Source of the DNA: Atriophallophorus winterbourni
Lineage: Eukaryota; Platyhelminthes; Trematoda; Plagiorchiida; Microphallidae
Direction: 5' to 3'
Assembly: GCA_013407085.1 (NCBI GenBank)
Contig: JACCGJ010013906.1
Location: forward strand, 1 to 64,000
DNA length: 64,000 nucleotides
Under the pieces are notes generated by a model. The model saw only the letters and a program-made list of their open reading frames with translations, did not search any database and had not been told where the DNA came from. Below, in pieces: positions 1 through 56,760 of this stretch (position 1 is its first letter; the number at the start of each line of letters is the position of its first letter). Position numbers and translations under genes: made by a program.

Positions 1-1078
1 TAGCTTTGAAGGGCTAGGACCTTGCCCTTTATAGTTGGCAGATCGCTGTATCCTAAATACATTCACAAGTATGGTATTTTTAATACCAATTGTTTCGGCT
101 AGATATTTCCACTGTTTGTGGTCGTGCTAAGACTTTTCTTGAGAAGGTACGTCAGCAGCATCTTCCGGAACACCAAGAATTACAATACTTCTTGGATTAC
201 GTTCTTCACGAGATTTCTGCGACGACTTTCGCTCCCACCATGTAGCTCTGCATGGATACGACATTTAGTCTCTGGAACACCTCTAAGAATGTAAGCATTT
301 AAGATTACGTTTTCCACGTCCTCCGCAGGTTGCAGCGTTATTCTTAAAAGGCGAGGATCATCCGTCTGAGGAGAATTCAGGTGGCGATTTAATCGAACTA
401 TTGATGAGGGAGTAACCGCGGCCAATCTCATCTGACTGCAGAGTTTAAACCAATCAGCTAAGTCATGTTTTTGCTTAGCTTCAAACAGCGTTTCCTGCTA
501 CTCTGTCACGTTTGTACATATAACGCTAAGGTTTACACCCGCGGACTTTATTTTATAATTTGAGTCAGTCATTGTAGTAGTGGATTTTTTGAGTCCTTTC
601 TCGGTTCCGTTAAGTCGAGGAGTCACTGATCCTAACGAACGCTCCCCCTGTTTTAGTCGCCATCTGCGCGGTTATCTGGGCAAATGTTGGCCTGCTCGAG
701 TATGATGTATTATCTACCGGCTCTTCGGCAGTAACCTCTAAGCCGGGTAACTACGGTGCCTTCATGACGTTTATTATCAGTTCATTCAATTTTTGTATAC
801 TGGATTCCATTCTATTCAGACGGGTCTCAATATCATATTAAGGGGTTTTCGCCGCCGAGGCTGACGGTGTTGATTTGGCCTTGCAAAGCAGACAAACATA
901 ACAGACACCAGGACAATCATCTCCATTAATAATCGATACTAAATACGAAGTCAGCGATTTGTCACATTTCGCATGCACTTTCAACAAACAGGCGTAACAC
1001 GTGACAGACCTCGCCTTAGGACTTTCGGCAAACCGTGCACATGCATCCCGGTGCGCTTTGTATCCTTTTCGGGGTCAT
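1..1078 (-). pseudogene. CR1-like LINE ORF1 remnant (PHD-type zinc finger), runs off window edge
   Basis: Read on the minus strand from an ATG at 1078-1076, the first ~60 codons encode a cysteine/histidine finger: a CMCTVC pair, then CYACLLKVHAKC, then CYVCLLC. It matches the N-terminus of the better preserved ORF1 at 18900 in spacing and in residues such as SPxxRxVxCY and the IINxxxxPGxCY stretch. A second open piece at 431-180 matches the C-terminal part of ORF1. Stops and frame changes separate the pieces, so it is dead. ORF1 proteins of this type are presumed to bind nucleic acid for CR1-like retrotransposons. ORF2 would lie left of position 1. Recognition as a LINE ORF1 is firm; clade naming is by similarity to CR1-type layout. 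Confidence 0.75.
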
Positions 1079-5006: not shown

Positions 5007-5087
5007 ATGTTGTTCAGATGGTGTTCGCCGAGTTTCTGTAGTTGTTGTTGGACGTTTCGTCATCGAGCTATATGACATCATCAGCAC
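2652..5087 (-). CDS. CR1-like ORF2: C-terminal endonuclease part plus intact reverse transcriptase
   Basis: An uninterrupted 811-codon frame. The first ~27 residues are read out of the neighbouring Penelope pLTR and are not native. LINE homology starts around HGPHRLKEV with the C-terminal half of an APE endonuclease (DLIFT near residue 80, GRSDHLVL). RT blocks follow in order: RKSPGADGITPALLKSC, ANYRPVTLLPVISKVMERIV, CYLDMSKAFDRVDH, GVPQGSVLGPVLF, and the catalytic FADD (~residue 541, bases near 3457-3468). A C-terminal domain with LLDRIYHRATKLV and FLWNALP completes it. The N-terminal endonuclease catalytic half is absent, so autonomous activity is unlikely although the RT frame is intact. 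Function is target-primed reverse transcription by family knowledge. Confidence 0.85.
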   Translation of the reverse strand: MLMMSYSSMTKRPTTTTETRRTPSEQHVSMLFIHGPHRLKEVIHNYDALLVMIDMIPLHNHVFDFTHRRGSELPSILDLIFTSEKTAVEGVDYIAPLGRSDHLVLAFEFVCSARRVCASSKQFRKSDYAGLRGSLGLVNWQELDQHNTETQCSELTKILQSNIDHVDERRASDFRFKLRSRTKKWLGKRNCAWTEHRKTRTDASSQQFSKIRNKVNALVKEDKQYYHRSLSLKMEENPKLLYRIVNARSSVKPGVFPVISENGLTVTAKETADTLAQFYENVFSPITVRANENLLTSIVSQQLNNIEINSAIIRRHLCRLNPRKSPGADGITPALLKSCDQQLCEPLCQLFQHSLTEGVVPTEWKTGVISPIYKGGSRSDPANYRPVTLLPVISKVMERIVTENIVHHLESQNILSVAQHGFRKARSCLTNLLTVLNDWTQTVDAGDSVHACYLDMSKAFDRVDHFLLLRKLKQIGIDGQLLVWFESYLNERKATVRVNGVQSRAINTSSGVPQGSVLGPVLFLVYINDLPETLSCKVVLFADDVKLWMRIKSTADCVKLQSDLDALHEWSVRNKLPFNFQKCKLLQIGKPFQYEYHFGQTILSWTESEKDLGVWICGSLKNSVHCEVIYKRASKLLGMLRRIFRTFTPVTLPRIMKTYLIPTMEHASQAWTPWMKKDIFLLDRIYHRATKLVRGYRNLTYEERLKKLKLPTPLQRRLRSDVIITYKILNTPDHPLKHLFKYRESGITRSHSAALQIPHSRTNCRRYFYSVRVCFLWNALPEAIITSPCIQTFTRTLDNYLLLNDLTMPVY

Positions 5088-5397
5088 AACTCCTTTCGAA
5101 GTGACTTATGATTGGTATTCATTGGTTTATATAAGGTCCGTCTGTCCGTTCGCCATCACTCCCGTTGGTTGGTGGATTTCGTTTGTTGCAAACTTATCCA
5201 TCGGTTTTTATTGCTCCATAGGTTGTAGCCAATTGTAGGTTCTGGTTAATAGATGTGGTTATCGAGTGCCACGCTTCTATGAATTCTAGCGCTTGTCGGT
5301 TGTTTTCTTTAGCTAAAATCTTCACTTTGTCCTAATCGAATCGGTGCCCGAATTGATCAACATGTATTGAAATCAATGACCTTGGGTCGTGCCTTCG
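5007..5397 (-). repeat. Penelope downstream pLTR
   Basis: About 391 bp, the direct partner of 7206-7587. It contains the end of the GIY-YIG reading frame (about 5397-5250) and a hammerhead-like motif at 5042-5092. Confidence 0.85.
5042..5092 (-). ncRNA. Hammerhead ribozyme motif in downstream Penelope pLTR
   Basis: On the minus strand: CTGATGA (5084-5078), stem II GTCAT/ATGAC closing an 8-base loop, GAAA (5058-5055), then CGTC, giving a palindromic ACGT mini stem III and the canonical GUC cleavage triplet ending at 5051. Bases on either side (GUUGUG before the core, CAACAAC after) can form stem I with one bulged A. Minimal hammerheads with very short stem III are known in Penelope-like elements (Cervera and De la Pena). 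Activity here is inference. Confidence 0.78.
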
Positions 5398-7206
5398 TAC
5401 AGCTAACCGCTGTTTATGTAGTCTTGTATTTAGCTTGCGACCGGTTTGTTTGATGTAGTTCTTCTTTCAATCTCTGTACGTTATGTTGTAGACGATATTC
5501 TATTGTTTTTTTGCAACTTTGTCTTTTATTTGGTTGAAGCGGTTGCGTGATGTTGACACGGGTTTGTGCGCGACCTCTATTCCAGATGGCCCAAGGACCT
5601 GAGCTACCATGTACAATATATTCTGCACATACGGAAGAGCGCGTCTTACTCTGTTTTTATAATCGTTTCTTTGTTGGGTACGGTTGAACTTGTCGTGTAC
5701 CACGAAGCTTTTTTGTACTATTCTTCTGGAACACTTTGAACAGGTATTCTTCTTCTTGTCTTCTTAGTTCCGACTTCCTGCTATGTGTTGCTGCTCCTTT
5801 GAATAGGGTTCTAACTCAGCTGCGTTTGCTTTGGCAATTAGGCTGGAAAAAGTGATCCTATTGGTGTTCCTCGAAACTGCTCGTAGATTTTACTATTCAA
5901 ATTGAAGTGTGTCTGAAGACACAGCTCGATCAATTCCATCAAACTCTTTCGTGTTAATCGATTTCCGTTGTGTTCAGTTCCCTTTTCGTGGAGCAACGCT
6001 GATACGATTTGCTTTGCGAGTGTTTGATCGATTGATTGGAATGACGCCGTTACGTCGAAAGAAACCATTATTTCATCTTGATAGAACTTCACATTCTTAC
6101 ATTTCTGGAAAAATTCTTCTGCAGGGTCGGCAGCGTGTTCCGAGTCTATCGTCAGGTATAACACTCTTCTTCGCAATTCTTTCGATAACTTGTAATTCAG
6201 TCCTCCTGGTAAAGAAACTAATTGAATATTCTCTGTTTATTTTGGGTAATATGTAGAATTTCGGTATAGTTGAGTCTTCTGGCATCATTCTTGTTTGTTC
6301 CATTCCATTCAGTTGTCGCAAAAACTTCAATTTCTTCAAAGTTGCGTTGATTTTGCTTTCATGTCGTTTAGTCAGGTCTTTGTACATTTGTGTGCATGTT
6401 GTTCTATCCTGCAGTAGCTGTTCAGCCTTCTCTATATAATCTGCCTTGTTCATTACCACAGTCATTCTTCCTTTGTCGGTGGGAAGGATAACTATGTTTC
6501 GGTCTTGTTTCAATCTGTTCAAATCTTTGGTTTCCTGTTTATTGAGTGTGTTATGTTCCAAATTCTTGGTGGGCGCGAGTACAATTTGTTGGCTAACTTC
6601 TTTTTGTGTGTCTTCTGTCGAAATGTGAGATTTCAGTATTGACTTCAAATTAGGTAGGAATTCTGTATGATAGGCGTTTTTCAAATTGAAGTTAAGGCCA
6701 CGTGTGAGAAATCGTTGTTCATTCTCTGTCAGAGGTCTGTCGGACAGATTCTTGCCAAAGGTTCGCCAATGGGGGGGATTATTCGGAGTTTGTTTTCTAT
6801 GTCGCGCCGTTTGTTTAGCTTGGTTTTTCGGGGCGCTATCGCGATGGCGTCGGTTAGCTGTTGTGTTAGTTCAGGTTCAAATAACATATTCACATATTCG
6901 CTTTTCGATTCCGATAACGTTGGAATACTTCTTGAGTCGTTTGTGTGCGTCATCAATCATGCCTTGTAGCCACTGCCGATTTTGTCGTTCCATTAGTTGC
7001 CGCGAACGAAAATTGTTAATCCGTGGTCGTCGTTGTAAAGATTTTGGAGTTAGGTTCCTGCGTTGGCACTCATGCAAGAAAAAAATAATTGTTCATAAGC
7101 TGCACCTGTTCTTCCGCTGAAGCTTTTCCAGCGTCTGGCTTTCCTAAATGTTGGTTGCCCAAACTGTTCAGCAATAGAGGATAATATGCGTAGCTCAGGA
7201 TGCGGA
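5230..7206 (-). pseudogene. Penelope-like polyprotein (RT plus GIY-YIG), broken
   Basis: Minus-strand pieces in order: an N-terminal region (7077-6729); the conserved block with LPTDKGRMTVVM and PKFYILPKI (6684-6240); the RT palm with VSFDVTASF and GTPIGS (6176-5838); then a linker with VLGPSGIEVAHKPVSTSR (5703-5500); and a GIY-YIG nuclease start with NIVYNITY and YIKQTGRKLNTRLHKQR (about 5510-5400). Several frameshifts break it. The catalytic YxDD region expected between GTPIGS and the linker is missing, apparently an internal deletion near 5720-5840. It is therefore dead. In intact relatives the protein copies RNA and cleaves target DNA. Confidence 0.85.
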
Positions 7207-7587
7207 TGTTGTTAAAATGGTGTTCGCCAAGCTTGTGTAGATGGTGTTGAACGTTTCGCAATCAAGCTAGATGAAATCATCAGCAAAACTCCTTTCGAAG
7301 TGACCTATGATTGGTATTCATTGGTTTTTATAAGATCCATCTGTCCGTTCACCATCACTCCCGTTGGTTGGTGGAATTCATGTGTTGCATTCTTCTCCAT
7401 CGGGTATTCATTACTCCGAAGGTTGTAGCCAATTGTAGGTGCTAGTTAATTGATGTCGTTGTTGGGTGCCACGCTTCGAGGAATTCTCGCGCTCGTCAGT
7501 TGTATTCTTTGGCTAAAATCTTCGCGCTGTCCCAATCGAATTAGGGTACGAATTGATCAACATGTATTGAAATCAATGACCTTGGGT
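7206..7587 (-). repeat. Penelope upstream pLTR
   Basis: About 382 bp, directly repeated with 5007-5397 and diverged by scattered substitutions. It includes a copy of the GIY-YIG C-terminal coding segment and a second hammerhead motif. Confidence 0.85.
7244..7292 (-). ncRNA. Hammerhead-like motif in upstream Penelope pLTR
   Basis: Minus strand: CTGATGA (7283-7277), a diverged stem II region, GAAA (7257-7254), then CGTTC in place of CGTC. The core boxes are intact but stem II pairs less well than in the other pLTR, so this copy is probably weaker. Confidence 0.6.
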
Positions 7588-25720: not shown

Positions 25721-28700
25721 AAAAGCAATTTAATAAAAACATATCTTCACTGTAAGTGAAGATCATTAATATTTATCCACACGATTTATCTTTGGGGTGT
25801 ATCGAGGATTTCAAATACCTACAAGTCAATGCTATACGCATGGTTTAAAATGAGGGCCTATTTCGACAGAATAATTAAAAATAACGCTTATTTCTCAATA
25901 CATTTTTGAAATTCTTCTTTTCTGATTTTTGTTGTGTTTGTGAACATATTCATAATATCACACGGCTTACAGTTACATCACTCAAATTTTACCATGAGAA
26001 CTACCATTTTTCTCTAATATAAACTAATGATGTAAACGTATCGTGACATCTCAAGTTTGACCATACGTGTTGTGAAGTTATTGCTCAAGAGAACTCAGTT
26101 TGCATGCGCTTTATATAGTGTCATCTCCAAGCTCGAGAATGGGTAGATACTGCTCTTGCCTATTGAACATATATCACAGCTTCAACTTGTAACTGTCTCC
26201 GATTGGCATAGTAATGTCTATCGATTTGAACGCTGAGGGAGAAATTGATTCTCCCAAATCGGACTGTTTAGTAAATTAAAACGCTGCAGAGCATTAAACC
26301 GTCATGCGCTTTCGATGTACATTCATGGATGACATCGATCGACGAAGGCCAACAAAACTTTTCTTGTGCAAATAAGTGTATGTGATCGAAAAACTCATTT
26401 GCATGCATTTCCATGACACACACCCACCACGACCAGTTTCGTGCTGTTGGCACACATCAGGTACGGACAGTAGGATCCGGATCCGTAAAAGTTAGTTGGA
26501 CTTTTTAATTGGATCAAGACATAATTATACCCAAAACTTGCATGCCAATGAAAGTCAAATATATTTGGAATTGCCTAAAAGTTACGTTTTTCTTCCTTCA
26601 ATTTACAATAGTATCTGTGCCGTTAGTAATGCTCGAGTAGACACAAAACCTCATGTTCATTGAGACTTGTCACAGTAGTAGTGTGGTTAATATGTTCAAT
26701 ATAATGCTGTTTTAATTAGTTCAGAATGATACCCTAACTCTCTGTAAGAAAATCATGCTCAACTCAGGTTCAGGAAACCCATTCATATTATCCTGATTTC
26801 CTCAGATACCAAAAAAACTTTTTATGCAATATTCATTCTTTTAAAAACAGAATGTAGAAGTATTCCGAAATCCACTCATTTGTGAGACACCCATCCAAAA
26901 AAATCAATACCCAAGTAACTAAACAAAGCGTACTGCACGAAAGATATATTCAAAAACGATAATGATTTTACCTGCCGTTGGAAAACTATAAATAATAACA
27001 CAAATCACGATTCCCTTGCGAATGTGCTAACACAATTTTCATCCAAGAAATTCTAGCATAAATATTTGATTGTCTCAAAAGGTCCATATGGTGCAAACCG
27101 ATCGCCAAGCGAAAGTTTATCAATTTTCGGAAAACAACAGGATAATTGCTTGGAGAACGCTTGCGCTGAAATTCATAAATCAAAGATGTTGATGAATTGG
27201 ACGTTTGTCAGTCTGGCATATACGGAATATCGCTAAAAACGAATGTGCTAAACGTATTAAATTTAAAAGTCCCAGGACTACTAATTTGTGTTTGCATTTT
27301 ATCATGAAAATTTCTATTTTGCTATCCGCGTTCTCGAACTAATCGAATGAATTTGGCAGATATTTAAATAATTGCTAGATTAATTACTAAAGTTTGTGCA
27401 CTACCGGTCGCGTCCCGAGTCATGAGGCCTTGTAATATTCATTTTTCAGTCTCACATGACGCTGATAATTAAGTACGTGAAAGTTTACACTTTGTAAATC
27501 AATGTTTGCAATGATCTGTTAAAAAATAGTTACTTTAACATCATCTCAATTTTCCGCCATTTGATCTTGAAGTTTCGCAAGTTACGGCTGACAGAGTTTA
27601 TGTAGTCGAGTGTCTAATATTTCTGTTAAAAATCACCGTTAGATTGCGGGAGTTTCAAATAAGTTTGACCTTCGCTGAGTTAACGTTCGAAGAGATACTT
27701 ATTACTGTATAATTTTGACAGCGTTCGGTAATTGAAATTTGTTACATTTGACATACACACTTGATTATTACATCTTGAATCGCAAAACATTATCAAAAAA
27801 ATTGGGGTAAAATATTCTGTTCACTCTGACATGCTTTTCAATGTTCGTGCGAACCATTTCTCCACTTTTTGAAGCGCTCCTACAAAATACTTGCACAAGA
27901 AGCAGGCCGATAATAATGGGCCTTCAAAATTGTCATTATTGTGGAAAGTGTGGGAAAGCAATCTACAGTTATTTATTAAAATGCCGAAGTTTGTAAAATT
28001 GATACCGATCTTGGGTGAAAAATCTGTCGTCAACTGGTGTTTCCATAATTTTTCATAAATGCAATAATCATGTTCTAAAAATTGAGCATTTTCAACCGAA
28101 CCGATAGACAATCGTTCAAAACTGTAAAATTAAGCTAAACATGTATTCCTAATTACGTATTGTATGAACATCATGATTGGCGTCGGGTATAATTTATCGG
28201 ATGTATTATCCACCCTGTACGCATAGAGGTTCCGTTCATGTATGAATTGTAAAGACAACAGTGTTACTGTTGATCACAACGTCGGAGAAAGAAAACTTAA
28301 ACATTCACTAGTCTCTAACATTCATTTGCAAATTTTAGATTGAAGAGTAAATTTACATTGCATAGCATGCCAATATTGATCGAAATATTCCAAAAAGTAT
28401 GCCGAATCCTCAACTCCCATAGAAAATTCTATAGTGTTTTACAGCACATATCATTAGTTCCATAAAATTGAAATTAAAATTTTATCTGTCATCGATTGTG
28501 TTTCCTAAACGTTCTTCTATAGATAGATTCTTATTAAAGAATTTCGGTCAAATTTATTTTGTTACATCCTAGCGTATATTTTTTGCAGATATAACCGAAA
28601 AAGTTATTTTGACACTATCTATTCGCCATTTTAAATTCACCAGGTTGCTTAACCTGCTATCCAATATTCGATGTGTTATAAATTGCGGATAGTACACTAA

Positions 28701-29164: not shown

Positions 29165-29245
29165 AACAAAAAATGCTCATTTGCATGTTTTTCCAAAACA
29201 CAAGCTAAACGATGGGTTTTGTGCTGTCTGCACTCATCTTCCACT
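29165..29245 (-). repeat. F/D-family hammerhead repeat, copy B1 (degenerate)
   Basis: Minus strand: AGATGAGTGC, then loop and GCAC, then AAAACCC. The first core box and GAAA are each changed. It is head to head with the plus-strand copy B2. Confidence 0.6.
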
Positions 29246-29355
29246 GTTTCGGGCGCATGCGGATCCTGATCCTACTGCCCCTACCTTATAAGTGCCAACA
29301 GCGCGAAACCGGTCGTGGTGTGTGTGTGTGATGGAAATGTATGCAAATGAGCTTT
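29246..29355 (+). repeat. F/D-family hammerhead repeat, copy B2
   Basis: Plus strand: flank GCGCATGCGGATCCTG, first core box mutated to CTTATAA, stem II GTGC/GCGC, GAAA, palindromic ACCGGT and C17 (GUC triplet, 29312-29314), then GTGG pairing with CTAC. Ends with ATGGAAATGTATGCAAATG. Confidence 0.68.
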
Positions 29356-29544: not shown

Positions 29545-29660
29545 CAACAGATGTTGCTCATTTGCACGTATTTCCATCACACACATCCAACGAACGGTTC
29601 CGTGCTGTTTACATTCATCAGGTAGGGACAGTAAGATCAGGATCTAGTTCGATTAGTCTT
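29545..29660 (-). repeat. F/D-family hammerhead repeat, copy C
   Basis: Minus strand: CTGATGA intact, stem II ATGT/GCAC damaged, GGAA replacing GAAA, then ACCGTTC. Flanks match the D subfamily (GATCCTGATCTTACTGTCCC). Confidence 0.6.
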
Positions 29661-33779: not shown

Positions 33780-35028
33780 CTGTTATGGAGAAATGATTTA
33801 TTATCAACAGAGTATACGAAGTATATTGATTACTAAATTATTTGCAACTACTTAATACAAAAGTGAAAAAATATATAGGACTATATTATATGAAACTGAG
33901 ATCCCCTCTCTTACTTACGCACCACATTCGTTTTCTAGCTTGAGGTAGATTGAGAAACATTGAGTTTAATAGCTAACTAACTAACCACTGTCCACCAATT
34001 AACCACTGTTTCAAAGTTTACTGAACCTAAGATTACTGTTTCCACCTGGTGATGGCAAACAGCCAGAAATCCAGTTCTGAATGGAGTGGGAGTTGTGAGC
34101 ACCATAGTATAATCGTCACTTATAGCTGCCTTGAGCGCGTGGTCAAGAATCCATTTTAATTCAGTATTTGAACGAGTAATGAAATATGAGGAAAATCTAA
34201 CGTGTGGTAACACACCTACAATTGTATGCGAAAAGAGCACGTCAAACGCTGTATTCGGAATGAATTATTAAATAAAAATGCGTTCCAAAAATCCTCCCCA
34301 GTCCATTCACAGAGCTGCCGGTTGAGCGTGTGCTACAAATAATCGCTTCAAAGTTTTTAGGGATATATAACTAAGATCATCTCAAGTAATACAATACCAG
34401 GTGTAGCTTATTACCTCCATTTACGTAGTTTTTATGTGATTTGTTTTCAGTTGAAACTATCAATATGATTGCTCTTCTAATAGTGCGGTTGAAAAATATA
34501 CCTCAGTGCTTAGAGCAATTGGTTAAAAGCTTTTTAAAATCATTTGTACAATAACTGATGCTAGCTAATACCCTGGATTATTTTCCAGAGCAATACTCTT
34601 CAAAATACAATTATCCAAAAATTACTAAATTCGTGAAACATATTTTTGATACGTCACCCAGCTGAAATTGATCGTTTCAACTATTCGATTTCCACTTTCA
34701 ACTTACAGACAAATTAGCGGTGGAAGCACAGCATACTTTGTAATGTTGATTCAAATCTCAAGTATACCATCGAAAACTGCAACAGTCAGATTAGCCTTCT
34801 ACCCTTTTTGAATACGATTCATGCACAGAGTGCTTAAAAAATTAGCGAAAACACCTACTTGTACCAAAGTAAATTACACATGATGTAACAAAGTGATTAT
34901 TTTCCCATGCAACGAAATAGTCATGAACTCGCAATTTCATTGATTAACCATTCATCTCACGGATCAGGTCGAGGCATGCTTATGAGTGGAGGGTAGAGGG
35001 TCAATAACAATTCGTATCATAAAGGTAC
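33780..35028 (-). other. Intron 5 of QRICH2-like gene
   Basis: Contains a decayed F/D-family repeat (33990-34190). Nothing else recognised. Confidence 0.55.
33990..34190 (+). repeat. F/D-family hammerhead repeat, copy I (degenerate)
   Basis: Plus strand: TTTCCACCTGGTGATGGC, loop CAAACA, GCC, GAAA, then diverged stem III; the downstream arm (GGTCAAGAATCCATTTTAAT) aligns with the 42-kb unit. The core box is CTGGTGA, so probably inactive. Confidence 0.6.
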
Positions 35029-38067: not shown

Positions 38068-38132
38068 CTACTGTTATAAGTGGTTCGTACAGCGAACATA
38101 GATGTTCAAACACAGAATCACATTGAGCATAA
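38068..38132 (-). repeat. F-unit 3'-arm fragment
   Basis: GGTTCGTACAGCGAAC and GATGTTCAAACACAGAATCA are the reverse complement of the arm that follows the hammerhead core in the 42-kb copy. Confidence 0.6.
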
Positions 38133-39840: not shown

Positions 39841-40463
39841 GAAGAGATTACCTGATAACGTTAGATTGTGCAATCCCAGAATCGTTTATGCTGTGAAATT
39901 GCAGCGTTGCATTACAAAATCATCCGAGACTGACACAAAGTCGCCAGCGAAAATATTTCAACGTCCGACCAATAACTACTGTTACTGACTCGTTGTTACG
40001 TGCTAAAAGCTCAATAAAGTGTCTCTATATGAATGCCCAAAGTTTGTTTAATAAATTGGCTGAACTCACCGAGCTGTGCCAACGATACTCGCTGGACCTC
40101 GTCGATGTGACTGAAAACTAGTTTCAATCTTGTATGAAAAAAGCGAACTGTCGATCCAAAACTAGTACGGAACGATCGCTAACGAAAAGCTGGTGGTGTG
40201 AATCTATACTGTCACGAACGTCTTCAGTGCATGAAGATTCACGATCACAACCTCTAATCAGAAGATACCCTCTGATGTAGCCCTACACAAGAGTCACAGG
40301 ACGACTGCATTATTGGCATAATATATCGCCCCTCTGTCTTCGACGGATGCTCCAAACGACAGGTTATTAGAGGCTCTACACTATGCCGGGGAGATGCGAA
40401 GCTCCCAATTACTGGTCATGAGGGAATTCAAACTTCCTCATCTTTTTAACGGATCAGATCATC

Positions 40464-40715
40464 AAAGTAATGTGTTGCTCACATCCCCATCCCTTACACA
40501 CCACTACCGGTTTCTGGCTGTTTGCCGTCGTCAGGTGGAGACAGTAAGATCAGGTTTCTGGTGTGTAAGGGATGGGGATGTGAGCAACACATTACTTTGG
40601 TCATCCATAAGCGCCTCGAGTGCTTGACCCAGAATCACTTTGTGATTCTGTCTAAACATCGTGGTTAGTTGTACGAACCCTATATAACAGTTGGCATACA
40701 AGTATAACCTTGTTA
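40464..40715 (+). mobile_element. F-family hammerhead repeat insertion (copy E) with 12-bp TSD
   Basis: A 252-bp insertion flanked by GATCAGATCATC at 40452-40463 and 40716-40727, splitting the CR1-like endonuclease frame. The left part is an inverted hammerhead core (minus: CTGACGA at 40534-40528, GGC/GCC stem II, GAAA 40514-40511, ACCGGT then A, then GTGG at 40504-40501). The right part (from about 40553) is a plus-strand unit starting CTGGTGTGTAAGGGATGG, which makes a ~50-bp inverted repeat with the left arm. Confidence 0.85.
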
Positions 40716-41538
40716 GATCAGATCATCCTCTACACACACCTGATCATAAATTCCGTGAGCTGATCGACATGATTCCACTGCATAACCATGTGTCCGACTT
40801 TACTCACAGAAGAGGATCAGGGTTACCGTCTGTTTGGGATTTAATCCTTACTTCCGAGACAAAAGCAGTTGAGGGTGTTAACTACATTTCCCCCCTCGGT
40901 CGGAGGGACAATTTTGTGTTAGGCTTTGAATATATATGCAGCGCTAGATGAATATGTGAGTCCGCAAAGCTATTCAGAAGGACCGACTACGTGAGTTTAC
41001 GTGACACGCTTGATCTACACGTGATCTAGATGCTCTCCACGAATAGTCGGTACGGAATAAGTTGCCATTCAATTTCCAAAAATACAAGGTGTTGCAAATT
41101 GGTAAGCCATTCCAGTACCAATATCACTTTGGGCAGACGATTTTGGGCTGGACCGAGTCATAAAGGGATCTAGGAGTTTGGGTTTCCAGCAACCATGATG
41201 AACAGCCTGCATTGTGAGGTAATCTACAAGTGTGCTTCCAAGCTTCTAGGTATGTTGCGACGGATTTTCAGAACCTTCTCGCCTGGAACGTTGTTCATTA
41301 TCATGAAAGCCTGCTTAATTCCAGCCATGGAGCATGTATCACATCTTGGTCTCCGTGGTTAAAAAAGGATATATTATTGCTTGATAAAAATACCACCGTG
41401 CAACCAAACTCGTAAGTGGTTTCCGGAAACTAACATACGAGGAACGATTGCAAAATCTGAGACTCCCTACTCCCATTCAAAGAAGTCTTCGAAGTGATGT
41501 GATACTAACATACAAAATATTAAATATTTCACATCATC

Positions 41539-41717
41539 ATGCAAAGAAATTTGAGTGCAATCGGTTAGAGTAGTATTTGGATAACGTTTCACGTCTAACA
41601 CAAAAGATTCGTCAGACCAAGGGTGATAGTCAGGACTGGGAACATGATTAAGTAGTAGTCAACCCACCACCACTTATTTGACCTTACCGCTAAACATATT
41701 AAAAATCGATTGCTGAC
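41539..41717 (-). mobile_element. K-family repeat insertion (copy K3) with 11-bp TSD
   Basis: A 179-bp insertion flanked by TTCACATCATC at 41528-41538 and 41718-41728. Minus strand: CTTGGT, CTGACGA, a stem-loop, GAAACGTTA, then CTCTAACCGATTG and an end in TTTGCATGA. The host CR1-like C-terminus continues on the far side (HHPLKHLFEYRESQ). Confidence 0.83.
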
Positions 41718-42092
41718 TTCACATCATCCTTTAAAACATTTATTCGAATACCGTGAGTCACAACATACCCAATCAGCAAAACTGCAAATTCCCCAATCCC
41801 GTATCAGCTGTCGCGAATATTTTTATTGTGTAGTGTTTGTTTCCTTTGGAATGCCTTCACAAAACTCTTGTCATCGCTCCCAGCGTCGAAGCATTCATTC
41901 GAAATTTGGATACTTATTTATCGCATAAGGATTTAACGACACCTGCTTATTGACTCATGGTAAGTATTCAACTGGACTATACTTGACAATAAATGTTTTT
42001 TTATACCTTTTTCCTGAACGAATATTTACTACGATATGGTAATTGTGAAGCTATGTGCTTCTTATTACCATAAATTCTTGCATCTTGAACCT

Positions 42093-42418
42093 TGAGTGCT
42101 TGACCAATAATCACTTTTTGATTCTGTATTTGAACACGGTGGTTCGTTGTACGAACCCTATGTAACAGCGGCATTTAAGTATAACTTTGTTAACCACTAA
42201 TACACTGTTTCAAGGCTCATTGAACCTAATCTTACTGTCTCCACCTGATGACGGCAAACAGCCAGAAACCGGTACTGGTGTGTAAGGGATGGGGATGTGA
42301 GCAACACATTACTTTGGTCATCCATAGGCGCCATGTGTGCTTGACCAAGAATCACTTTGTGATTCTGTGTTTGAACATCGTGATTCGTTGTACGAACCCT
42401 ATGTAACAGTGGCTTGTA
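42093..42418 (+). repeat. F-family hammerhead unit, 241-bp partial tandem (copy F)
   Basis: GTGCTTGACCAA...CTATGTAACAG begins at 42096 and again at 42337, a period of 241 bp over about 1.35 units. The core lies between: CTCCAC (42239-42244), CTGATGA (42245-42251), GGC/GCC stem II, GAAA (42265-42268), palindromic ACCGGT, A17 at 42274. It sits directly after the CR1-like 3' tail. Confidence 0.82.
42239..42282 (+). ncRNA. Hammerhead ribozyme-like motif, F unit
   Basis: Core boxes CTGATGA and GAAA are intact. Stem II is short (GGC/GCC) with loop AAACA and a C/A mismatch at its base. Stem III is the self-complementary ACCGGT, as in dimerising minimal hammerheads; the cleavage triplet would be GUA. 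Stem I pairs imperfectly (one mismatch next to the site) in this copy, but perfectly in copy G. Confidence 0.68.
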
Positions 42419-43130
42419 GTTCTGTGTTCGTCGAATTGTTAACCTTTCTGCATGCTCAGAACAAGTACGTTTTCTATCCCCAATACCTTTGTTATGTACG
42501 CGAAATTGCTGAATCAGGTGCTCATTCGATTCGAACTTTTAATGAACAGAATCTATGAAACTTCATACGCAAACTTTTACATGCCAAAGAAGTTTCAGAT
42601 TGTGAGAGTTCAAATACCCGAAAGCTGAACAAATCATTTGCATCCATTAAGATTATGAATAACTATATTCCAAGTGAAGCTAGAGACCAATTATTCATTT
42701 GCTCCACACTTTCGCAATCAGTCGTAATACAGGACACGATTCCGTGGTTCATAACTTCATTTTAAGAAAAACATTATGATGCATGTTTCAGCATGCGTAA
42801 TTAAGTCACAACCTTTCAGCGTGATTACTCGTGGTTCAGTTTAGAAAATGTGAATATTAATGCTCATGTAGAATTCCAACACCTAACACTTTCAACCTAA
42901 GTTTGTTAAGTGTTCCAGAAAAAAATCATTTCAGCTACTAAACGGTTAACCCAATACGACTACACAGAGAAGTCTATTTAAACGGAGCATTATACCTCCT
43001 AAACAGCAGTTGATCAAAAAGACTGCGGATTTAACGGGGAAAAGATTCCGCATAATTTTCATCGAATCGATGATACACTAAATTTTTTCAAGGCCTTTTG
43101 TTTTATTAACAAGCAATTGTATCCACCTAC
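42419..43130. other. Unassigned intronic DNA
   Basis: AT-rich, no recognised feature. Confidence 0.4.
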
Positions 43131-43241
43131 CGACAACGTGACCTTCTCCACAACACTGGAGATCATTTTCTGCAACAGTTCATTGGATTCTTCGAATTCC
43201 GCACGTCGAATTACATCGAACAATTCGTTCTTGCTTGCTTT
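43131..43241 (-). CDS. QRICH2-like gene, exon 3
   Basis: The acceptor TCGGAACAG precedes 43241; the donor GTAGGT begins at 43130. Exactly 37 codons: KASKNELFDVIRRAEFEE, then SNELLQKMISSVVEKVTLS. It resembles the ADKSALxxKVSRTQF segment of DUF4795. Phase 0 on both sides. Confidence 0.82.
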
Positions 43242-43726
43242 CTGTTCCGAAATAAATCACAAAGAAATGTAAACTTGTGTTGAAATCGTCTAATCAATAT
43301 AATGTTTCAATGATCCACCTTGTTCCGTTTTTAATAGGACATTACAAGGGATTTTTAAGCGATTGGTGGAATAAGTTACAGCGAACAATGTTTCTAACGA
43401 TTAAACAACATTTAAAAACGGTAACCAACATGGTAAACAGGCCGGAATGGAAAACAGATGCCGAACAGGTGCCTTAGATGATTGGTTTTGAATTAAAATT
43501 TAATTTAATTATGTAAATCTGGATAGCATGTTGTAAATTGCACGAAATTTAAATGCTTGTTATTCAACTTTGGCTGTAGAGTTATCAACGCTCTATGTTA
43601 TAATAACAATATTTTTATGCAATATGTTAGATAAGATTTCAGCCAACATTTCGTTTTGGACACCGAAGATTCGTTAGACAAAGAGCCACATACGGATATA
43701 CTGTTCAGGAACAATGTAAACTTAAC

Positions 43727-43990
43727 GGTGTGTAAATGCGGATGATTTGTGCACATCACTGCATTAGTCATTCACGAGCGACATGCGCGCTTGACCCGGT
43801 GTGAGCATCGTGGTTTGGTGCAAGAATCCTATTTTGCACTGACTTTTAATTATAACCGTGTTTATTACATTTCTACTGTTTCAACGCTACTTAATCCAAA
43901 TCGTACTATCTCCACCTGATGACCGCAAACAGCTAGAAACTGATTGATAGGTGTAAGTGCGGTGGAGTGGGAGTGGGCGTTATTGATACA
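43727..43990 (+). repeat. F-family hammerhead repeat, copy H (monomer plus)
   Basis: Starts GGTGTGTAAATGCGG at 43727 and meets the equivalent position again at 43950, a period of 223 bp. The core CTGATGA (43916-43922), GAAA (43936-43939) and loop are present; stem II and stem III are mutated. The copy begins at almost the predicted cleavage position of the unit. Confidence 0.7.
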
Positions 43991-44189
43991 CTTTTGCAGA
44001 TGTATGCCACATTGTTAACCGACCTTGACCTTAGTAATTTATATCGGATCGACGTGTATACACGCAGTGTTAGGAAAATTGATCACTGATTATTTTCGCC
44101 CACATGATGAAGATTTCTTAAACATGAGGTCAAGCATATATTGTGGATCCATGATAGCTTAGTCATGTTCATGTCTTGCTCAACACAAT

Positions 44190-44265
44190 TGATCTGACGA
44201 AGCTTTCGTGGCGGTATTGAAGCGTTACTCAAATCTGTTTCAAGGGGATTGTTTACAAATTTATT
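44190..44265 (+). repeat. K-family repeat, degenerate (copy K4)
   Basis: TTGATCTGACGAAGCTTTCG, a changed stem II partner, then AGCGTTACTCAAA. Aligns to the K consensus. Confidence 0.6.
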
Positions 44266-45549
44266 TCCATTCGTATGACTGCGGCATCGATTACAAACAT
44301 TTTTGAATCAAGTGTTTTATATCATCACGGAAATCCTCCAAATGAATGAATAGTGGAAATTGTTAAGGATGTCGAAGATAAAAATACAAATCAAAATCGA
44401 TTATTGCTATGAAGTGTCAGAGAGGACCTCGTGAGAATAAGGTTTGTTTTAGTTGATCTTAAACCAAATAGTAACGTATAAGCAGAGCGTTTCATGTGTC
44501 TACTAAGACTCACGGAACCCGATTTTCAGCGTTTGCTTCAGCAAAATATATTTCTTCATGCATGAGGTTTAAATACGTGTAAATATGAGAGATTATACAT
44601 AAAAAAATTTAAACTTGAATTTGAATGGAGATATTTCTATTATATATCGTTGCTCCAATTCCCAGCCCTGAATTTAATAAACGTATTGAGCGCTTCGTCA
44701 ACAATCACTTTATGCTGTTCCAAGATCAGATTTATGACATTTGCACTCATTATTCAACAATCGTATTCACAATATGCGCGCTTCGAAACAGTGTATAAAT
44801 GGCGACAAATGAGCACAAATTAGAAGCTAATTTTAGGAACTATTGATACATCCATTGATATCAATCCCATGAACGGAATATACACATGTCCATTAGGCGA
44901 AATATATGATACATGAGTGATATATTCGTAACTGCACACCTTCCGACCAACAAACTAAACAAGAAAAATCTCGCTCTAAATATTTTATAATTTACACAGG
45001 ATGTTCCCATTAGATTTGAAATCAGCGGATGTCATTAACGGAGACTGCCAACATCGTCATCATCACCATCATTGACGGAATTACACCAGTAACAAGTACG
45101 AAGTGTTTAACTGTGAAACAACCATGACGTAGTAAAAATTCTAAAAATATATTGGGGGAGGTTCGGGCCTAAATGCTATTGAACCTTTAAAAGATTAGAC
45201 ACATACACCAAGATGAGGTGCTTACACATTGAATCAAACGTGCTCTGAAGCATGTGTTGTGAACGAGTAGAGCAACATCAGCATGACAGCCACAGCGAAA
45301 TCTTTTCTTCTGGACCCCAACATGGGATACGGATAGCATTAACCGCAGCTAGTTTAAAAGTCAAAGCCTTCATCTGATTCAGCCAAGTCGAAATCTGACC
45401 ACATTTACAACGAAGTCATTCCGAGTTAGGAGTTGCTAACAAAACCGGGTTACGGAAACGATTATATACCATTCGCAATACGATTAATAACCAGCTAAGT
45501 CTATGCAAGTTAATTTGTTATTCTATAACTAAATCGCTACCAAAGATTC

Positions 45550-46985
45550 TATTACGGATAGTTACGTTGCGTATTCGATATGGCCAAGTAACTCCAGCCA
45601 TATGCGGAGAAAGCGATTGCCAGATGCTCGCAGACGTCTTAGTTTTCCTTTCAGAGTCCATGATTCACATTACATAAAACGCCGTTTACTGTAGCTGTAG
45701 CGACAAACCAGTTTGACGCCACAGAGGACTCAAGTTGGTAAAAGCTACCGTAGCTTTGGAAACGTGAGCTGAGATCTGCTTATTTAAACAATCCTTGCTG
45801 GTAATACAACTACTCAAATAGGTGAAACAGTCTATTGAGTCTTAGAGCTGTTTCAATTGGATCAATATCCACACAGGATCCGCATACCGAAGGATGGTAT
45901 GATTGTACATAGACGATGTTAAGTAGCCTGAGCATCCGCATTGGAATCGAAGAGTAAAACTACATCGTCGGCATAAGCTAGATTAAGACTTTTTTCTGTT
46001 GCGACTTATCTGAATACAAGGTGTTGGTAGGCCTGCAATCGTAAATTTAAACAAAAATGAACAAATTGGACACCTTTGTCTGACATCTCTAACCGTGGAA
46101 AAGTTGGCTAACAGGCGTTCGTACGCCCTAACGCGCTTAGAACTCTAATAATAAAGCACCCGAAATGTGTTAACGTATTTTTATGGGACGCTTTTGAGTA
46201 ATAGGGTATTAAATAATGCGTTTCTAACCACCGAATCAAAAGAACCCTTAAAATCAAGAAAGATCGCAACAGTGGGCTACCTTTGAGCATGGCGATGTTT
46301 TAGGGCTAACTGCAGAGTGATTATATGATCGACAAAACTTCTACCGGAACAAAATCCTGTTTGCTCTCAACGAATCTGTGATGCTCTGTGTAATGTGCGG
46401 CACAAGATACTGAAGCAAGAAGCCGTGTAATGACAGGCGTAAAGCTTACTCATCTGTGATTGAAGCTTGGAGTACGCACACGTTTTTGAAAATAGGTATG
46501 ATTATAATTTCTCCCGAACACGGAGTAAGGGGATCAGTCTCCAATACCTGACGAAAAACGTCAACTGGATTACTTAATAGAATATCGCAAACAGCAAAGT
46601 ATTTGAAAATATTCGAGACCGACCGGGAGTCCATAATCATGAAAATAAAGTTTGCAATGAATCGGTAATAGTGAGTTTTTGGTAACGTTTCGCTTCTGAA
46701 CACAGAAGCTTCGTCGGACCAAGGGTGTCGGTACGAACTTACTATAACCGATTCATTGTAAACTTTATTTTCAAGAATATCGCAACCGTTCTTGAACAGA
46801 GCCCCGGGCCAGTCTATTGGGATCACCTCCCCTGAATCTTTTCATCGACACAATACCGAGCTTGATTTCTGCGTCGCTCGGAGGCGTTAAATCAACTGAC
46901 CAGGGTTCGCAACACGAAATAGAAGGCAATTGACCATCCGCTGCTGGCCAGCTAATAGTCATCTGTTGTTGTTGTTGGCCGCCCT
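45550..46985 (-). pseudogene. Third LINE clade: degenerate RT (YADD type)
   Basis: Minus-strand RT landmarks: LTPPSDAEIKLGIVSMKR (about 46900-46850), EIIIIPIFK (about 46520-46490), GF-GRSFVDHI-like residues (46390-46310), VFLDFKG near 46260, and YADDVVLL (45986-45949). Frames are broken throughout. The conserved spacing and YADDVVLL distinguish it from the CR1-like FADD and RTE-like LLFADD families here. It ends near an RTE-type 3' edge (GGCCGCCCTCGTTCGATGTC, about 46978-46997). Confidence 0.65.
46640..46775 (-). repeat. K-family repeat in hairpin form (copy K5)
   Basis: Minus-strand core: CTTGGT, CCGACGA (one change from CTGACGA), perfect 7-bp stem GCTTCTG/CAGAAGC with loop TGTT, GAAA, ACGTT, ACCAA. 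Its 3' arm (46640-46675) is repeated in inverted orientation at 46738-46774, about 33 of 36 bases matching, so the whole segment is a long hairpin. Inserted in the LINE relic. Confidence 0.75.
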
Positions 46986-48277
46986 CGTTCGATGTCGACC
47001 ATGGATGTACATCACAATCCGCATACCGAAGGATGGTATGATACTACATATTCGATCTATTCATCAGCAAATTATATCTTGTTTGCACTAATTTAATCCG
47101 ATTAGAAAATTGACACTTTATGATAGGCTAATTACCGAAACTCACAACACGAATTGTAATTCAAGTGAGTATCGTATCATTGTTGTTTTCTTCTAATAAG
47201 CTTGCTAAAGTGGTAGACATTTTCACAAAAATCACGACATTTAACCCTCAACAGATTGTGGTTTCTCTAGCTTACTCGGATCAGAAGTGAACGAAACTGT
47301 GCACATGACGAAAAACATCCATTCAAGTTCACAAACTCGAAACATTTGGAAACATTCTGCACGTCAATTCGAGAAGATTGTTGTCATATAAATGTTTGTT
47401 TTGTCAATATGATAGTCGATCCCTGTGATGAGTGATGATTTAATCTGTCAGACATTCAAAAGCATCTCCTACCCATACATCCTATAGTTAATTCCGAAGA
47501 GTTAAATCCATAAAGTTGTTGAGGAATATGTTTCCGGGTTATGGAAACCATTAATGTTTGTCTTCATGCTATAAATCATAGGATAAGAATGAGTCATATA
47601 AACTCACAATCGGAAAGGGTGCCGTTGATCTGACATTATATCATATTCTCTAGGCCACAAACACTAACAGTTGTGCAGCTAAAACTTCACTCAAAATTAG
47701 TCGTATTCCGAAATATAATTTTGTCCTAAACAAATGCAACCAGGTTCTGACAATGAAAGTTTGGCTCCAATAATTTGGAGAATGTAATTTTAGTTGTAGT
47801 GACCATATTTTTCCACAATAAACAATCTCTAGTGTTATCTTGCACGCAATATTATTATGTTGTAAAATTCTTGTATATCATAAAGAAACAACGGCCAGTC
47901 TACATTCGTCACCACACCAGCCCAAGGCTCGAAATTCGCTGCAGATTATTTCCTAAATCCTCGAATAGGCAAGCTAACTTACACCGAATTAATTTTAACC
48001 AATCAAATCTCGTTCAGAATAACCTTGGTCATGTTTCACAATGTCCTGAAATTTTTCTAATATATTGTCCAGTGGTCGATTGAGTGACGCGTCCTCCGAG
48101 CGGAAATAATTAACACCCATTAGGGACAGTTGGTCCCTTAATGCTCAATCGAATTTGCTTGACCCCAAACCAAATTCAATGTGCCGAGACATTGCGGTGT
48201 ATTTAATTGAATTTTACCAAACGGAATTGTTCATTTGTTACAACACGTATTCGGCAACCGCACCGAAGTTGATTATC

Positions 48278-48940: not shown

Positions 48941-50329
48941 GTGAGTGTTCATTTTGGTAATTTGCGTCGGCTAACGCGTTGTGACGTTAGCTTTAGATAT
49001 TGATTCATAATTGACATAAACTGGTATAAATAAATGAAGTGTATTCGCTAGCAATAATGCGTTTCTTGTTTGAATTTAGTTTGTAAATATCGCGAGCCAA
49101 AAATATATCAATTCGCGTACGTATAAATCAAATGTCCGGTGTTTAATCCAAGTAGATTTAATGTCATTGTGCAGCGCTTTGTCAAATTTTTGACAAACAT
49201 TTATCTCGGGTCAGACTGCAATAATCGGAGAATTATCTATGTTACCATAAACCATGTGCTGTCGTTTGGATGGCAGAAACTAGCATTAAGTGATCAAATG
49301 TATGAAGTGAAAAAGTAATGGTCTTTGGAATGCGCGCCAAAATTGCATATGATACCTATTATAAACAATGCCAACATTTTAAGCGATTGAAAGTTCAAGA
49401 TTATGGAACACTCACATGGTCACGAATTTAACCAGTAAACCTTATAAAGACAAACAGTCAGAAACCGTTAGATGTGGGTCATTTCAGGGGAACTGTGCAC
49501 TCAAAAAACTCGTGAAATTCAAAATGTATCGACAAGTGTTGAAAGGCCTCCAATAGATTTGAACTACTGCAAGATGGCTTCAAGCTTTAAATTTTTCCAC
49601 ACATAATCTAGGCGAAATGATCTCGTAATTTTTTTTGTTTTGTCACTAGTGATATGAGAGAAGCATACAAACTATGATCACTTCTAGATACTAAGATAAA
49701 CTAGTGTGACACGAAAGTCTATTGTGACGTTTTCAACGTATCAATCGTGAGTCCACCATCTGAATAGAATGTAATATTATTGGTAAAATATGCAGCAGTG
49801 ATTTATAAATCTGGTTTACAGAGTTTTTTTTACACTATTGCGAAATTACCGCCTATGCTGGCTGGGGCACGTCTACATAACATTTATTTCATGAAATCTG
49901 TCGCTCAGAAGATTATTGTGCCCAACCGACGACATGGAAGGGCCTGGAAAACAACAAAATCAATCTGTTCAAAAATTTTGAGCTCCTCTCATGTAGCAAT
50001 AATAGATTTTTAGTTAGCGAGATTGTTTGCGCAAACGAACATCACCACTGTTCCTGCTATTAACGCAACAACTTTGCAGAATTTTCCTATCTTCACGAAA
50101 GCCCATCCATTTAAATTTGGCACAATCGGATGATGTTCAGTACGATTCAAATTATAACCCATCATTCTTCACATGTCGGCAATCGACGTATTGTTATATC
50201 GCGTGATTTACTTGCTCATTTGTACGTTTCCAAGTGAACTGAACCAGCCCTGGCTGGTAAACTTGCACGTCTATTACAAATGCAATCCAGTTCTTCACAG
50301 CAATTAAGTCAAGTTCACAGAACCTGAAT

Positions 50330-52826: not shown

Positions 52827-53020
52827 GTTCATACAACGAACCACGATGTTCAAACTCAGAATCACATAGTGATTCGTGGTCAAGCACTGTTTACCACTAA
52901 TCCACTATTTCAAGGCTCACTGAACCTTATATTACTGTCTCCACCTGATGACGGCAAACAACCAGAAACCGGTAGTGGAGTTTAATTTCGGGGGATGTGA
53001 GCAACACATCACTTTGGTGA
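52827..53020 (+). repeat. F-family hammerhead repeat, copy G, inverted-arm form
   Basis: The left arm (52827-52888) is the reverse complement of the F unit's 3' arm. The right arm (52889-53020) is the plus-strand core: CTCCAC (52939-52944), CTGATGA (52945-52951), GGC with loop AAACA, then ACC in place of GCC, GAAA (52965-52968), ACCGGT, A17 at 52974, GTGGAG (52975-52980). Stem I is a perfect 6-bp CTCCAC/GTGGAG pairing. Confidence 0.78.
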
Positions 53021-54721: not shown

Positions 54722-56639
54722 TAGGCTAACGGATTGAGAAATGCACAACAATCAAATTCCGTACAACGGAACTGTTCTCACAAAATCTCTCATGTATTGT
54801 ACACACAAAAGATTTATTTCGTTAAATAGTTCTAGCATGTGTGTGGAACTTAAATGATTGATGCGAGGGAGGAAGTGAATATCGTGTAATCAACATTGGA
54901 TTTGTTCCGTTTTGTTGACTTATTTACTTGTCTGCGTGAATAACCATCTAAAGTTGAGGTTCCCAAACTTTTAAATGTCTCGCACCACTAAATATATTTG
55001 ATACACTATCGCAACCCTCATTTAAAGACACAAGAGAAATTATCACTGCATGAACACAAAATACGCTGAAAAATTGATGCTGAATCGGTATAAAAAAGTC
55101 AATACTTAATACAAACATGGAATAGCATCTTGCAACTCATGGAATGGTATTTCGCACCACTGGTTGGGAAACCCTGATCTAAAGCATGGATGTGTCAAAC
55201 TCTGTTCTCGGGAAAAAAACCGTAATTGCATTTATTTCCATCGCACACATCTTGCGTGATGTTCGAAAATATTAGTGCTATCGATAGCTGGAGTAGTATG
55301 TGAGCATTTCCACTATGCATGTTCAGATTATCATACGTCAATATGGTGCGAAGAGCCAATTCGTACATATTATAGATGTATAAAAGTGGTGGAGGAAGTT
55401 ATTATCTGATAATTGTAAATAAAAGAGATGAATAGCGTTTTCGCATTATCTCTCCAGAAATATTTGAAAAAGTGGGATGTATATACTCTGATTTGCCTAT
55501 CCAAACCAATTTTAACTGAAAGATTTGACGGTGATGAACAACGGTAGAAAGCCAGGCATGGAATCGAACTACTTTTCACTCCGATTTCTTTTTCAAGGCT
55601 CATCGTAACTTGTAACATCGATTTAAACTGGTGAGGAGAAACACGCAAAACGATTTACAAATCGTTGTGTGAATTTGTGAAATAAGGAATCAATACTCAT
55701 GGGTGTCAACGTGTTAAACTTACTAATAATTTCAGTTAGTATTATTACTTAATCGGTAAAATTATCAGATCGATAGCACTGGTCTCAATGTTTTAAACGT
55801 AAAAATGGGTCAATAATCTGTCACCATGGAAGTGGTTGAGCAGGAATCAGTGTTCTAAATATTTGAGATTAATCAACTCCCATACTAAAGGATATTTTAA
55901 CGTAAAGACAATCGGTGAATTGATATGGATCAGAATTTCTGTCTCCAATTGCGAAACGGGATTATCCTTCGTGGGAGTGTTTAAAATACAGAATGTTCAC
56001 GTGGAAAGTGTTGCGAAGATGCATGAAAATCCATTACACCATTACGCGTATTTTGTTGTTCAAACGTGATATAATTAATGGCACCATGTATGAACGACTT
56101 GAGAGGATGTGTACACTATATTTTTTCATTAATCACTATCAGAGACTCTGTGCATAGCTTCAGCTCTGCCATACGCAAAAAGGAATCAATCCGTTTGTTG
56201 ATGTATTTCTATATTTTCTACAATGTTACTCTTCCTAGCATTTCACAATCATAAAAAATCCGATTTGGGCAAACGATCTTTTTTGGAGCGCTCTTAGCAA
56301 TAGACATTACTCGGCCGATCAGTGGCAGTTGCATGTGTTACCGTAATCCAAGCTCAACAGCCGAAGTCCATCTGTATTTTTCCAGCTTTAATATACCGAT
56401 TCACACAGTGCCTTAAATGTTAGTGACCAAGAACAAGACACGATTTGCCATCTCATCTTTGCAAAGAACTTCGTGTTACAAGTGTGACCTTCTAACAAGT
56501 GCATAATCTGACTTCAAACCTCCTTAGAGTAGATCTGGAATACGGCCGTTTCTAGTTATGCACGCATTGCATTTTTATGGTTGTTAAATAAAAACGCTAT
56601 GTAGATAATGGCATACAAGCACTACTTGTTTACCATTCC

Positions 56640-56760
56640 TCCACTTTTTCAAGCGCATGCGGATCCTGCTCTTACTGTCCCTACCTGATGAGTGCAAACA
56701 GCACGAAACCGGTATTGGTGTGTGTGATGGAAATGCATGCAAATGTATATTTTGGCTATG
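56640..56760 (+). repeat. D-subfamily hammerhead repeat, copy D
   Basis: Flank GCGCATGCGGATCCTG, CTGATGA (56685-56691), perfect stem II GTGC-AAACA-GCAC (56692-56704), GAAA (56705-56708), palindromic ACCGGT and A17 (56714), ending ATGGAAATGCATGCAAATG. The best stem II of all copies. Confidence 0.78.

Follow-up and report, generated by a model that had tools for sequence, protein, structure and literature searches.

The repeat at positions 42090-42418 of the window (the whole 64,000-nucleotide stretch of Atriophallophorus winterbourni DNA analysed here) is probably a degenerate, 1.37-unit member of a retrozyme family that is predicted to cleave as a dimer and that would spread through circular RNA copied by a Penelope-like enzyme. 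Tandem arrays of the unit in the genome, intact cores in 63 of 94 sampled genomic copies, covariation in stem II and a predicted dimer fold together point to a metazoan-type retrozyme. The original prediction had offered this class as an inference from the unit alone, and it is now supported by the genomic arrays, the short unit, the type I hammerhead and a double hammerhead predicted for 52 of 93 genomic cores.

What is new here is the use of the insertion record as evidence on the carrier. The proposal that Penelope-like elements carry retrozymes was based on features common to both, type I hammerheads and tandem copies, and on their co-occurrence, which is the earlier case as set out in the available parts of the sources (PMC7229834; PMC7761336). 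In the present genome the insertion records of the passenger and of the candidate carrier can be compared, and they agree at the main site.

The repeat at 42090-42418 and its relatives in the window

A block of about 80 bp had been described as starting at 42096 and again at 42337. The repetition is real and somewhat longer, consisting of 88 nt at 42090-42177 and 42331-42418 with an identity of 87.5-88%, a start-to-start spacing of 241 and an onset 6 nt upstream of the starts first given. Between the two block copies sits the core string CTGATGA..GAAACCGGTA, and its reading as CTGATGA, a stem II with loop AAACA, GAA and the palindrome ACCGGT followed by A holds. Two irregularities had been missed, a C·C pair beside the cut, where most relatives have G-C, and a C·A at the base of stem II. 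Copy B, as we call this repeat, is laid out as follows.

42090..42330, plus strand: first unit (241 bp), direct repeat with spacing 241
42331..42418, plus strand: partial second unit, an 88-nt direct repeat, 87.5% identical
42238..42280, plus strand: type I hammerhead core with CCAC (42241-42244), CTGATGA (42245-42251), CGGC-AAACA-GCCA (42252-42264), GAA (42265-42267), ACCGGT (42268-42273) and A (42274); predicted cut 42274/42275; C·C at 1.1/2.1 and C·A at 10.1/11.1
42268..42273, plus strand: self-complementary stem III ACCGGT, which pairs only between two copies (ACCGGT.A in 77 of the 94 sampled genomic cores)
42311..42318, plus strand: ACTTTGGT, unit positions 37-44, the main 3' end site of insertions (18 of 60 outer ends at unit positions 38-45) and predicted start of reverse transcription

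Copy B is non-coding: the three ATG frames that overlap it have 45-57 codons, none longer, and Pfam matches nothing in a stop-to-stop frame of 113 codons that spans it. Its monomer has a GC content of 0.43, the criterion for metazoan retrozymes being below 50%. Tandem Repeats Finder, run on the window, does not list the 1.37-unit copy. Retrozyme circles are predicted to be highly self-paired in the available part of one report, where no shuffle control is given (PMC7229834). The circularised copy B monomer folds at -52.5, which is no better than shuffles (z 0.15), and strong folding of the circle was dropped as support.

Ten further copies or fragments in the window match the unit, making 11 with copy B. 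A core is recognisable in 10 of the 11, the exception being fragment J, and most copies have lesions in the core or stems.

40464..40715, unstranded: copy A, a head-to-head composite of an inverted arm (unit 190 round to about 42-48) and a direct arm (unit 1 to 159)
40452..40463, unstranded: left target-site duplication of copy A, GATCAGATCATC
40716..40727, unstranded: right target-site duplication of copy A, GATCAGATCATC
40499..40541, minus strand: hammerhead core within copy A, which alone among the window cores satisfies the strict descriptor; predicted to fold as a double hammerhead
43727..43976, plus strand: copy C, old (about 70% identical), right end approximate
52827..53018, unstranded: copy D, a head-to-head composite with ends at unit 123 and 44
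33989..34173, plus strand: copy E, unit match
56593..56755, plus strand: copy F, of a subfamily with Watson-Crick stem II GTGC/GCAC
29242..29346, plus strand: copy G, unit match, subfamily of F
29562..29644, minus strand: copy H, unit match, subfamily of F
26399..26483, minus strand: copy I, unit match, subfamily of F
38071..38120, minus strand: fragment J, unit match without a hammerhead
49434..49499, plus strand: fragment K, unit match to the hammerhead region only

Copy A is inserted, between its two GATCAGATCATC strings, in what reads like a LINE fragment. Copy F is bordered on either side by the 10-bp string GCTATGTAGA, whose left occurrence overlaps the unit start. The diverged subfamily F to I shows the Watson-Crick stem II GTGC/GCAC in F and I, and its cut triplets are GTC in G and I, TTC in H and GTA in F. 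Right after the cut, C replaces the usual G in copy B (42275) and at the direct-arm starts of copy A (40558) and of the genomic locus L053; this C is possibly an untemplated base at a run-off end.

Insertion ends and the candidate carrier

The source assembly (537,331,230 bases in 15,840 contigs) was searched with the full unit, giving 81 matches from the best 40 of 3040 first-look candidates scored, and with unit positions 1-62, giving 40 matches from the best 40 of 214 candidates scored. The resulting loci, L001-L059, are best-scoring copies and no random sample. The end analysis used 60 insertions, after removal of repeated flanks, of insertions below 100 nt and of ends touching a locus end; duplications and composites were assessed in 42 insertions with both flanks, those that touched a locus end, were below 100 nt or were flanked by repeats having been dropped.

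The 3' (outer) ends are clustered. Eighteen of the 60 fall in an 8-nt window that opens at position 38, which places them about 42 nt past the predicted cut, against a maximum of 10 under uniform simulation (0 of 1000 as high as 18), and a second group lies at unit 155-165. For the inverted arms by themselves, the clustering of outer ends is weak (4 of 10 in 8 nt, a count reached in 24 of 1000 simulations). The 57 5' ends show no clustering, their best 8-nt window holding 6 (reached by 666 of 1000 simulations), and only 5 of the 57 lie at the cut site (240..4), which is no excess. Accordingly, 5' ends at the cut were rejected as a fossil of cleavage on this pooled count. Copies A, L053, L059, L038 and window copy C do start within a few nt of the cut; the pool lacks the direct arm of copy A because its locus had already come in through L001, and in it the alignment of copy C starts only at position 98. 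L038 was rejected as a single cut-to-cut monomer, since its sequence continues as the other subfamily.

Flanking repeats of at least 8 bp border 16 of the 42 insertions, compared with a mean of 0.72 and a maximum of 5 in 300 re-pairings, and the shared flank strings of 8 or more are 70% A+T. Head-to-head composites make up 11 of the 42, with the 3' ends pointing outward in all 11; five of these have one outer end at 38-48 and the other at 158-161.

Which enzyme might have set these ends? The window itself holds one candidate.

5007..7587, minus strand: a Penelope-like element, broken, in which the pseudo-LTR occurs twice; 44 nt separate its predicted cut from its 3' end

The pseudo-LTRs (7587-7206 and 5387-5007) are 85.9% identical, each with a hammerhead-like motif. 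We take the element to be Penelope-like from an N-terminal reverse transcriptase motif and from GIY-YIG remnants; Pfam gave its fragments in the window no name, and neither did a search with a protein fragment, which had 0 matches in a large protein database. The genome yielded 148 scored matches to that fragment, the copies including several open frames of 800-924 codons and some in tandem at steps of about 2531 bp. Thirteen of 15 fetched stretches were usable for locating 3' ends (of the other two, one had no match and one was masked). Measured from their own cuts, these ends lie at 43, 43, 43, 43, 46, 61, 61, 72, 77, 78, 80, 81 and 84 nt, that is, in classes of 43-46 nt (5), 61 nt (2) and 72-84 nt (6), with the proviso that L092/L096 and L084/L097, each pair alike in its flanks, may each represent a single insertion. 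Four further ends lie 44, 43, 82 and 83 nt after the cut. Apparent ends at 53-54 nt were dropped as the query's own end, and the rows from L082 as divergence inside an array. The two main classes (L083-L097, L003, L063, L080 and window 5007) fit the expected Penelope tail.

The main retrozyme end (38-45) is within a few nt of the Penelope-like 43-46 class, an agreement at one site that was noticed after the fact; on a circle of 241 nt, a peak would fall no more than 3 nt from +43 by chance with a probability of about 3%. The second end groups disagree (155-165 in the retrozyme versus 72-84 in the Penelope-like element). The agreement makes a Penelope-like enzyme the likely mobiliser; the comparison was made with the Penelope-like element, the other reverse transcriptases of the window being LINE-type. 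In the available part of a study of the Anolis Penelope-like protein, the one such protein tested in vitro, reverse transcription starts internally, downstream of the hammerhead cut and on both target strands, and the stretch bounded by the two start sites matches the 30-40-bp tail known from Penelope copies (PMC11167929). In the same study no reads end at the hammerhead cut, and hammerhead mutants still inserted, a point against the reading preferred here (PMC11167929). Rotifer Penelope copies are described with an inverted pseudo-LTR, a 31-bp tail and duplications of about 8-10 bp (PMC3846280), and duplications are a trait of the unit insertions too.

Could the same retrozyme family have been moved instead by a LINE (CR1-like) enzyme, through ordinary twin priming and with 3' ends chosen by microhomology? 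LINE-type reverse transcriptases are abundant in the window, target-site duplications also fit LINE insertion, and so do the shared strings that overlap the unit 3' end in L009, L015 and L027. The five composites that pair an end at 38-48 with one at 158-161, however, are not predicted by twin priming, and the nearness of the main end to a Penelope-like class likewise speaks against it, so that we regard a LINE mover as unlikely. Another reading does away with an independent retrozyme altogether and sees the copies as solo pseudo-LTRs of an unseen Penelope-like family. A hammerhead with a palindromic stem III, an end tens of nt past the cut and head-to-head copies are indeed Penelope traits in the sources as available (PMC7761336; PMC3846280; PMC11167929). 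What renders this improbable is that the units follow directly on one another every 240-245 bp, in arrays that reach at least 13, so closely that an open frame would not fit between them, and that the unit has no similarity to the Penelope-like loci L060-L079 at E up to 1 or to L080 at E up to 10, the only match being a single one of 32 nt in L082 (E 0.72). We keep to an independent retrozyme with a probable Penelope-like carrier. The unit has no frame for a reverse transcriptase or a GIY-YIG endonuclease; in its 3' end position and head-to-head copies it behaves like a Penelope-like element, and it is not a member.

Arrays, cores and the predicted dimer

Tandem arrays of the unit are present elsewhere in the source genome, as the original prediction implied, and range from 1.04 to at least 13.3 units (the longest, L025, runs into both locus ends, and its length is a lower bound). 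The spacing is mostly 240-245 bp, with 222-250 between neighbouring anchors. Within arrays, adjacent units are 92.8% identical (70 pairs) and non-adjacent ones 92.6% (211 pairs), and between arrays the identity is 89.9% (300 pairs). A permutation test, from which the arrays already counted (L030, L043 and L058) were left out, found identity decaying with distance (P<0.05) in 1 of 18 arrays and no neighbour effect in 17 of 18, as if the arrays had been laid down at once. L009 has 5.7 units with 99% identity between them and a 12-bp flanking repeat. This uniformity, together with the flanking duplications, matches the expectation for copying round a circle.

The sample of 94 cores comes from L001-L030 minus the duplicates L007, L008, L020 and L030, with L001, which holds copy B, kept. 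The descriptor asks for C3U4G5A6N7G8A9 and GAA, for four pairs in stem I and three of four in stem II, and for a stem III with UH; by it 63 of the 94 are intact, and the commonest 43-mer accounts for 38 of the 63. Stem I is CCAC/GTGG in 76 of the 94. Hammerheads normally have a G-C pair at the base of stem II. Here 88 of the 94 cores have a mismatch there, C·A in 65 cases and U·U in 23, and cleavage may be slower because of it; the other 6 are Watson-Crick (U-A in only 3). We found no published report of a natural hammerhead family that keeps C·A at this place, and other papers may hold one. Units with C·A and with U·U occur together in 8 of 23 loci, which is unexpected from a single circle and would need template switching or later exchange.

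Such mixed arrays would fit satellite DNA with a relic, inactive hammerhead and with arrays grown by unequal exchange, and so would the core and stem lesions of most window copies. That account is hard to credit in view of the dispersed insertions with duplications (16 of 42), the absence of a neighbour effect in 17 of 18 arrays and the 63 intact cores of 94.

The strict descriptor, requiring four stem I pairs, finds one site in the window (copy A, 40534 on the minus strand, and not copy B) and none in 100 dinucleotide shuffles of the window; with three stem I pairs it finds two, against a shuffled mean of 0.01. Covariation was assessed on an ungapped alignment of ten window cores, pair counts being set against 500 column shuffles. 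Three of five measures lie above all 500 shuffles: paired cells (77.3% versus a mean of 68.9), covariation (0.246 versus 0.126) and cells changed on both sides (8 versus 3.0), each with 0 of 500 as high. The other two are pairs changed on both sides (5 versus 2.3, 4 of 500) and further pair types (9 versus 7.6, 109 of 500). All five values drop when the partner columns are slid by 1-3. Stem II covaries across the window cores, from GGC/GCC to TGC/GCA and GAC/GTC. A model built from the ten cores matches 116 times across 25 loci with E up to 0.01, the ten cores themselves matching by construction.

The Rfam comparison that had been suggested for the window came out negative, with no hammerhead match there at the gathering score, and it was equally so at E up to 10 in 40300-44300 and in seven genomic array loci; Rfam support was accordingly given up. 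Rfam hammerhead models expect a stem III hairpin, which on our reading would account for these results. Matches to MIR2950 and mir-253 below the gathering score (40463-40599, both strands) were set aside as the inverted repeat of copy A. Exact pattern scans of a viral contig collection and of a genome contig collection gave 0 matches each.

The palindromic stem III had also led the original prediction to suggest a ribozyme working as a dimer. In unconstrained homodimer folding (L001, L007, L008, L020 and L030 left out), 52 of the 93 genomic cores, or 13 of the 50 distinct ones, are predicted to form a double hammerhead and 41 form none, compared with at least one hammerhead junction in 3 of 200 controls in which shuffling was confined to the stem I flanks of the commonest core. 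In the window, copy A folds in this way and copies B, D and F do not. The suggestion holds for the family, which is predicted to cleave its own RNA as a dimer, and fails for copy B, the very repeat for which it was made; the 41 genomic cores and window copies B, D and F weigh against the reading that we prefer. On these models, the family would offer a natural hammerhead whose stem III can form only as a dimer and whose stem II has a non-Watson-Crick pair at its base. The negative Rfam result would suit a chance hammerhead-like string within an unrelated repeat, an idea that hardly merits belief given that covariation already contradicts it, as do the strict descriptor (0 of 100 shuffles) and the dimer fold.

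A possible route of spread and related systems

In light of these findings, how might a unit of this kind spread? Arrays would be transcribed by read-through. In the predicted fold, neighbouring cores would pair by the 6-bp palindrome ACCGGU and each would be cut after GUA, and a host ligase would close the monomers of about 241 nt into circles, as in metazoan retrozymes. A ribonucleoprotein, presumably Penelope-like, would nick an AT-rich target and start to copy from set positions inside the unit, chiefly about 42 nt and also about 158 nt after the cut. Both target strands would often be primed, giving the head-to-head composites that, like the 3' ends, are seen in the insertion record. Copying round the putative circle would then produce a whole array at once, with target-site duplications of about 8-13 bp. 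Beyond this genome, we would give roughly even chances to Penelope-like enzymes carrying animal retrozymes, with the hammerhead serving as a landmark, a start about 42 nt past the cut, priming on both strands and one-event arrays, the landmark having evolved without other shared sequence.

Metazoan non-LTR retrozymes are defined, in the available text, by short tandem units with type I hammerheads, and the family is like them in having tandem units within 150-450 bp, a type I hammerhead, a GC content below 50% and duplications of more than 4 bp, platyhelminths being among the named hosts (Cervera and de la Pena 2020, PMC7229834). Specifically, the unit has a paired type I core, 241-bp tandem repetition, GC 0.43 and duplications of more than 4 bp, and is non-coding. 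Most invertebrate retrozymes in that source self-cleave efficiently as monomers, whereas the fluke unit has a zero-loop palindromic stem III, and its recurrent mismatch at the base of stem II also sets it apart (PMC7229834). The available text of that source contains no analysis of insertion ends. The satellite retrozymes Amex1 and Amex2 of newt and axolotl likewise have a weak stem III and cleave better as dimers, and in Amex2 the base of stem II is mismatched as U·U, as it is in some fluke units; the amphibian units measure 330-350 bp, in contrast to a fluke unit of 241 bp with a loopless palindrome of 6 and mostly C·A (PMC7229834).

The minimal hammerheads of Penelope elements also have a palindromic stem III and likely act as dimers, as far as the sources are available (PMC7761336; PMC3846280; PMC11167929). 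The Penelope-like elements resemble the unit in a 3' end about 43 nt past the cut (one class, in this genome) and in head-to-head copies; unlike them, the unit is non-coding, and its lack of sequence similarity to this genome's Penelope-like element weighs against the carrier proposed here. The schistosome Sm-alpha hammerhead, unlike that of the fluke unit studied here, has a full stem III and loop contacts. By description, Sm-alpha (and Sj-alpha) is otherwise similar in being a short fluke repeat with a type I hammerhead, going by the available parts of the reports (PMC6155905; PMC8490949).

In the literature covered, we found no published report of the 241-bp unit or of insertion-end evidence for a retrozyme carrier, and other papers may hold either. 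None of the papers covered joins the hammerhead with twin priming, and a search combining hammerhead ribozyme with fluke genera returned no hammerhead paper among the matches listed.

Further repeats lie in the same window. A second hammerhead-like module, reading CTGACGA..GAAACGTTA in its best copies, has eight dispersed matches, and we take it to resemble the minimal hammerheads of Penelope-like elements.

1117-1209, 61628-61700, 15026-15097, 44184-44271 and 59216-59278, plus strand: second module matches
41539-41631, 46639-46727 and 61047-61114, minus strand: second module matches

Long open frames at 2652-5105 (minus strand) and 10682-12445 (plus strand) match the reverse transcriptase domain RVT_1 (Pfam), and a further one at 12501-14576 (minus strand) reads like the LINE type of those RVT_1 frames, presumably CR1-like. 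The window is eukaryotic. Two frames of the ASC (degenerin) channel family (Pfam) occur on the plus strand at 48110-49003 and 53537-54721, the latter best matching fluke proteins (44% Paragonimus, 46% Clonorchis), and the two probably belong to one gene as exons. Between them are fragment K and retrozyme copy D.
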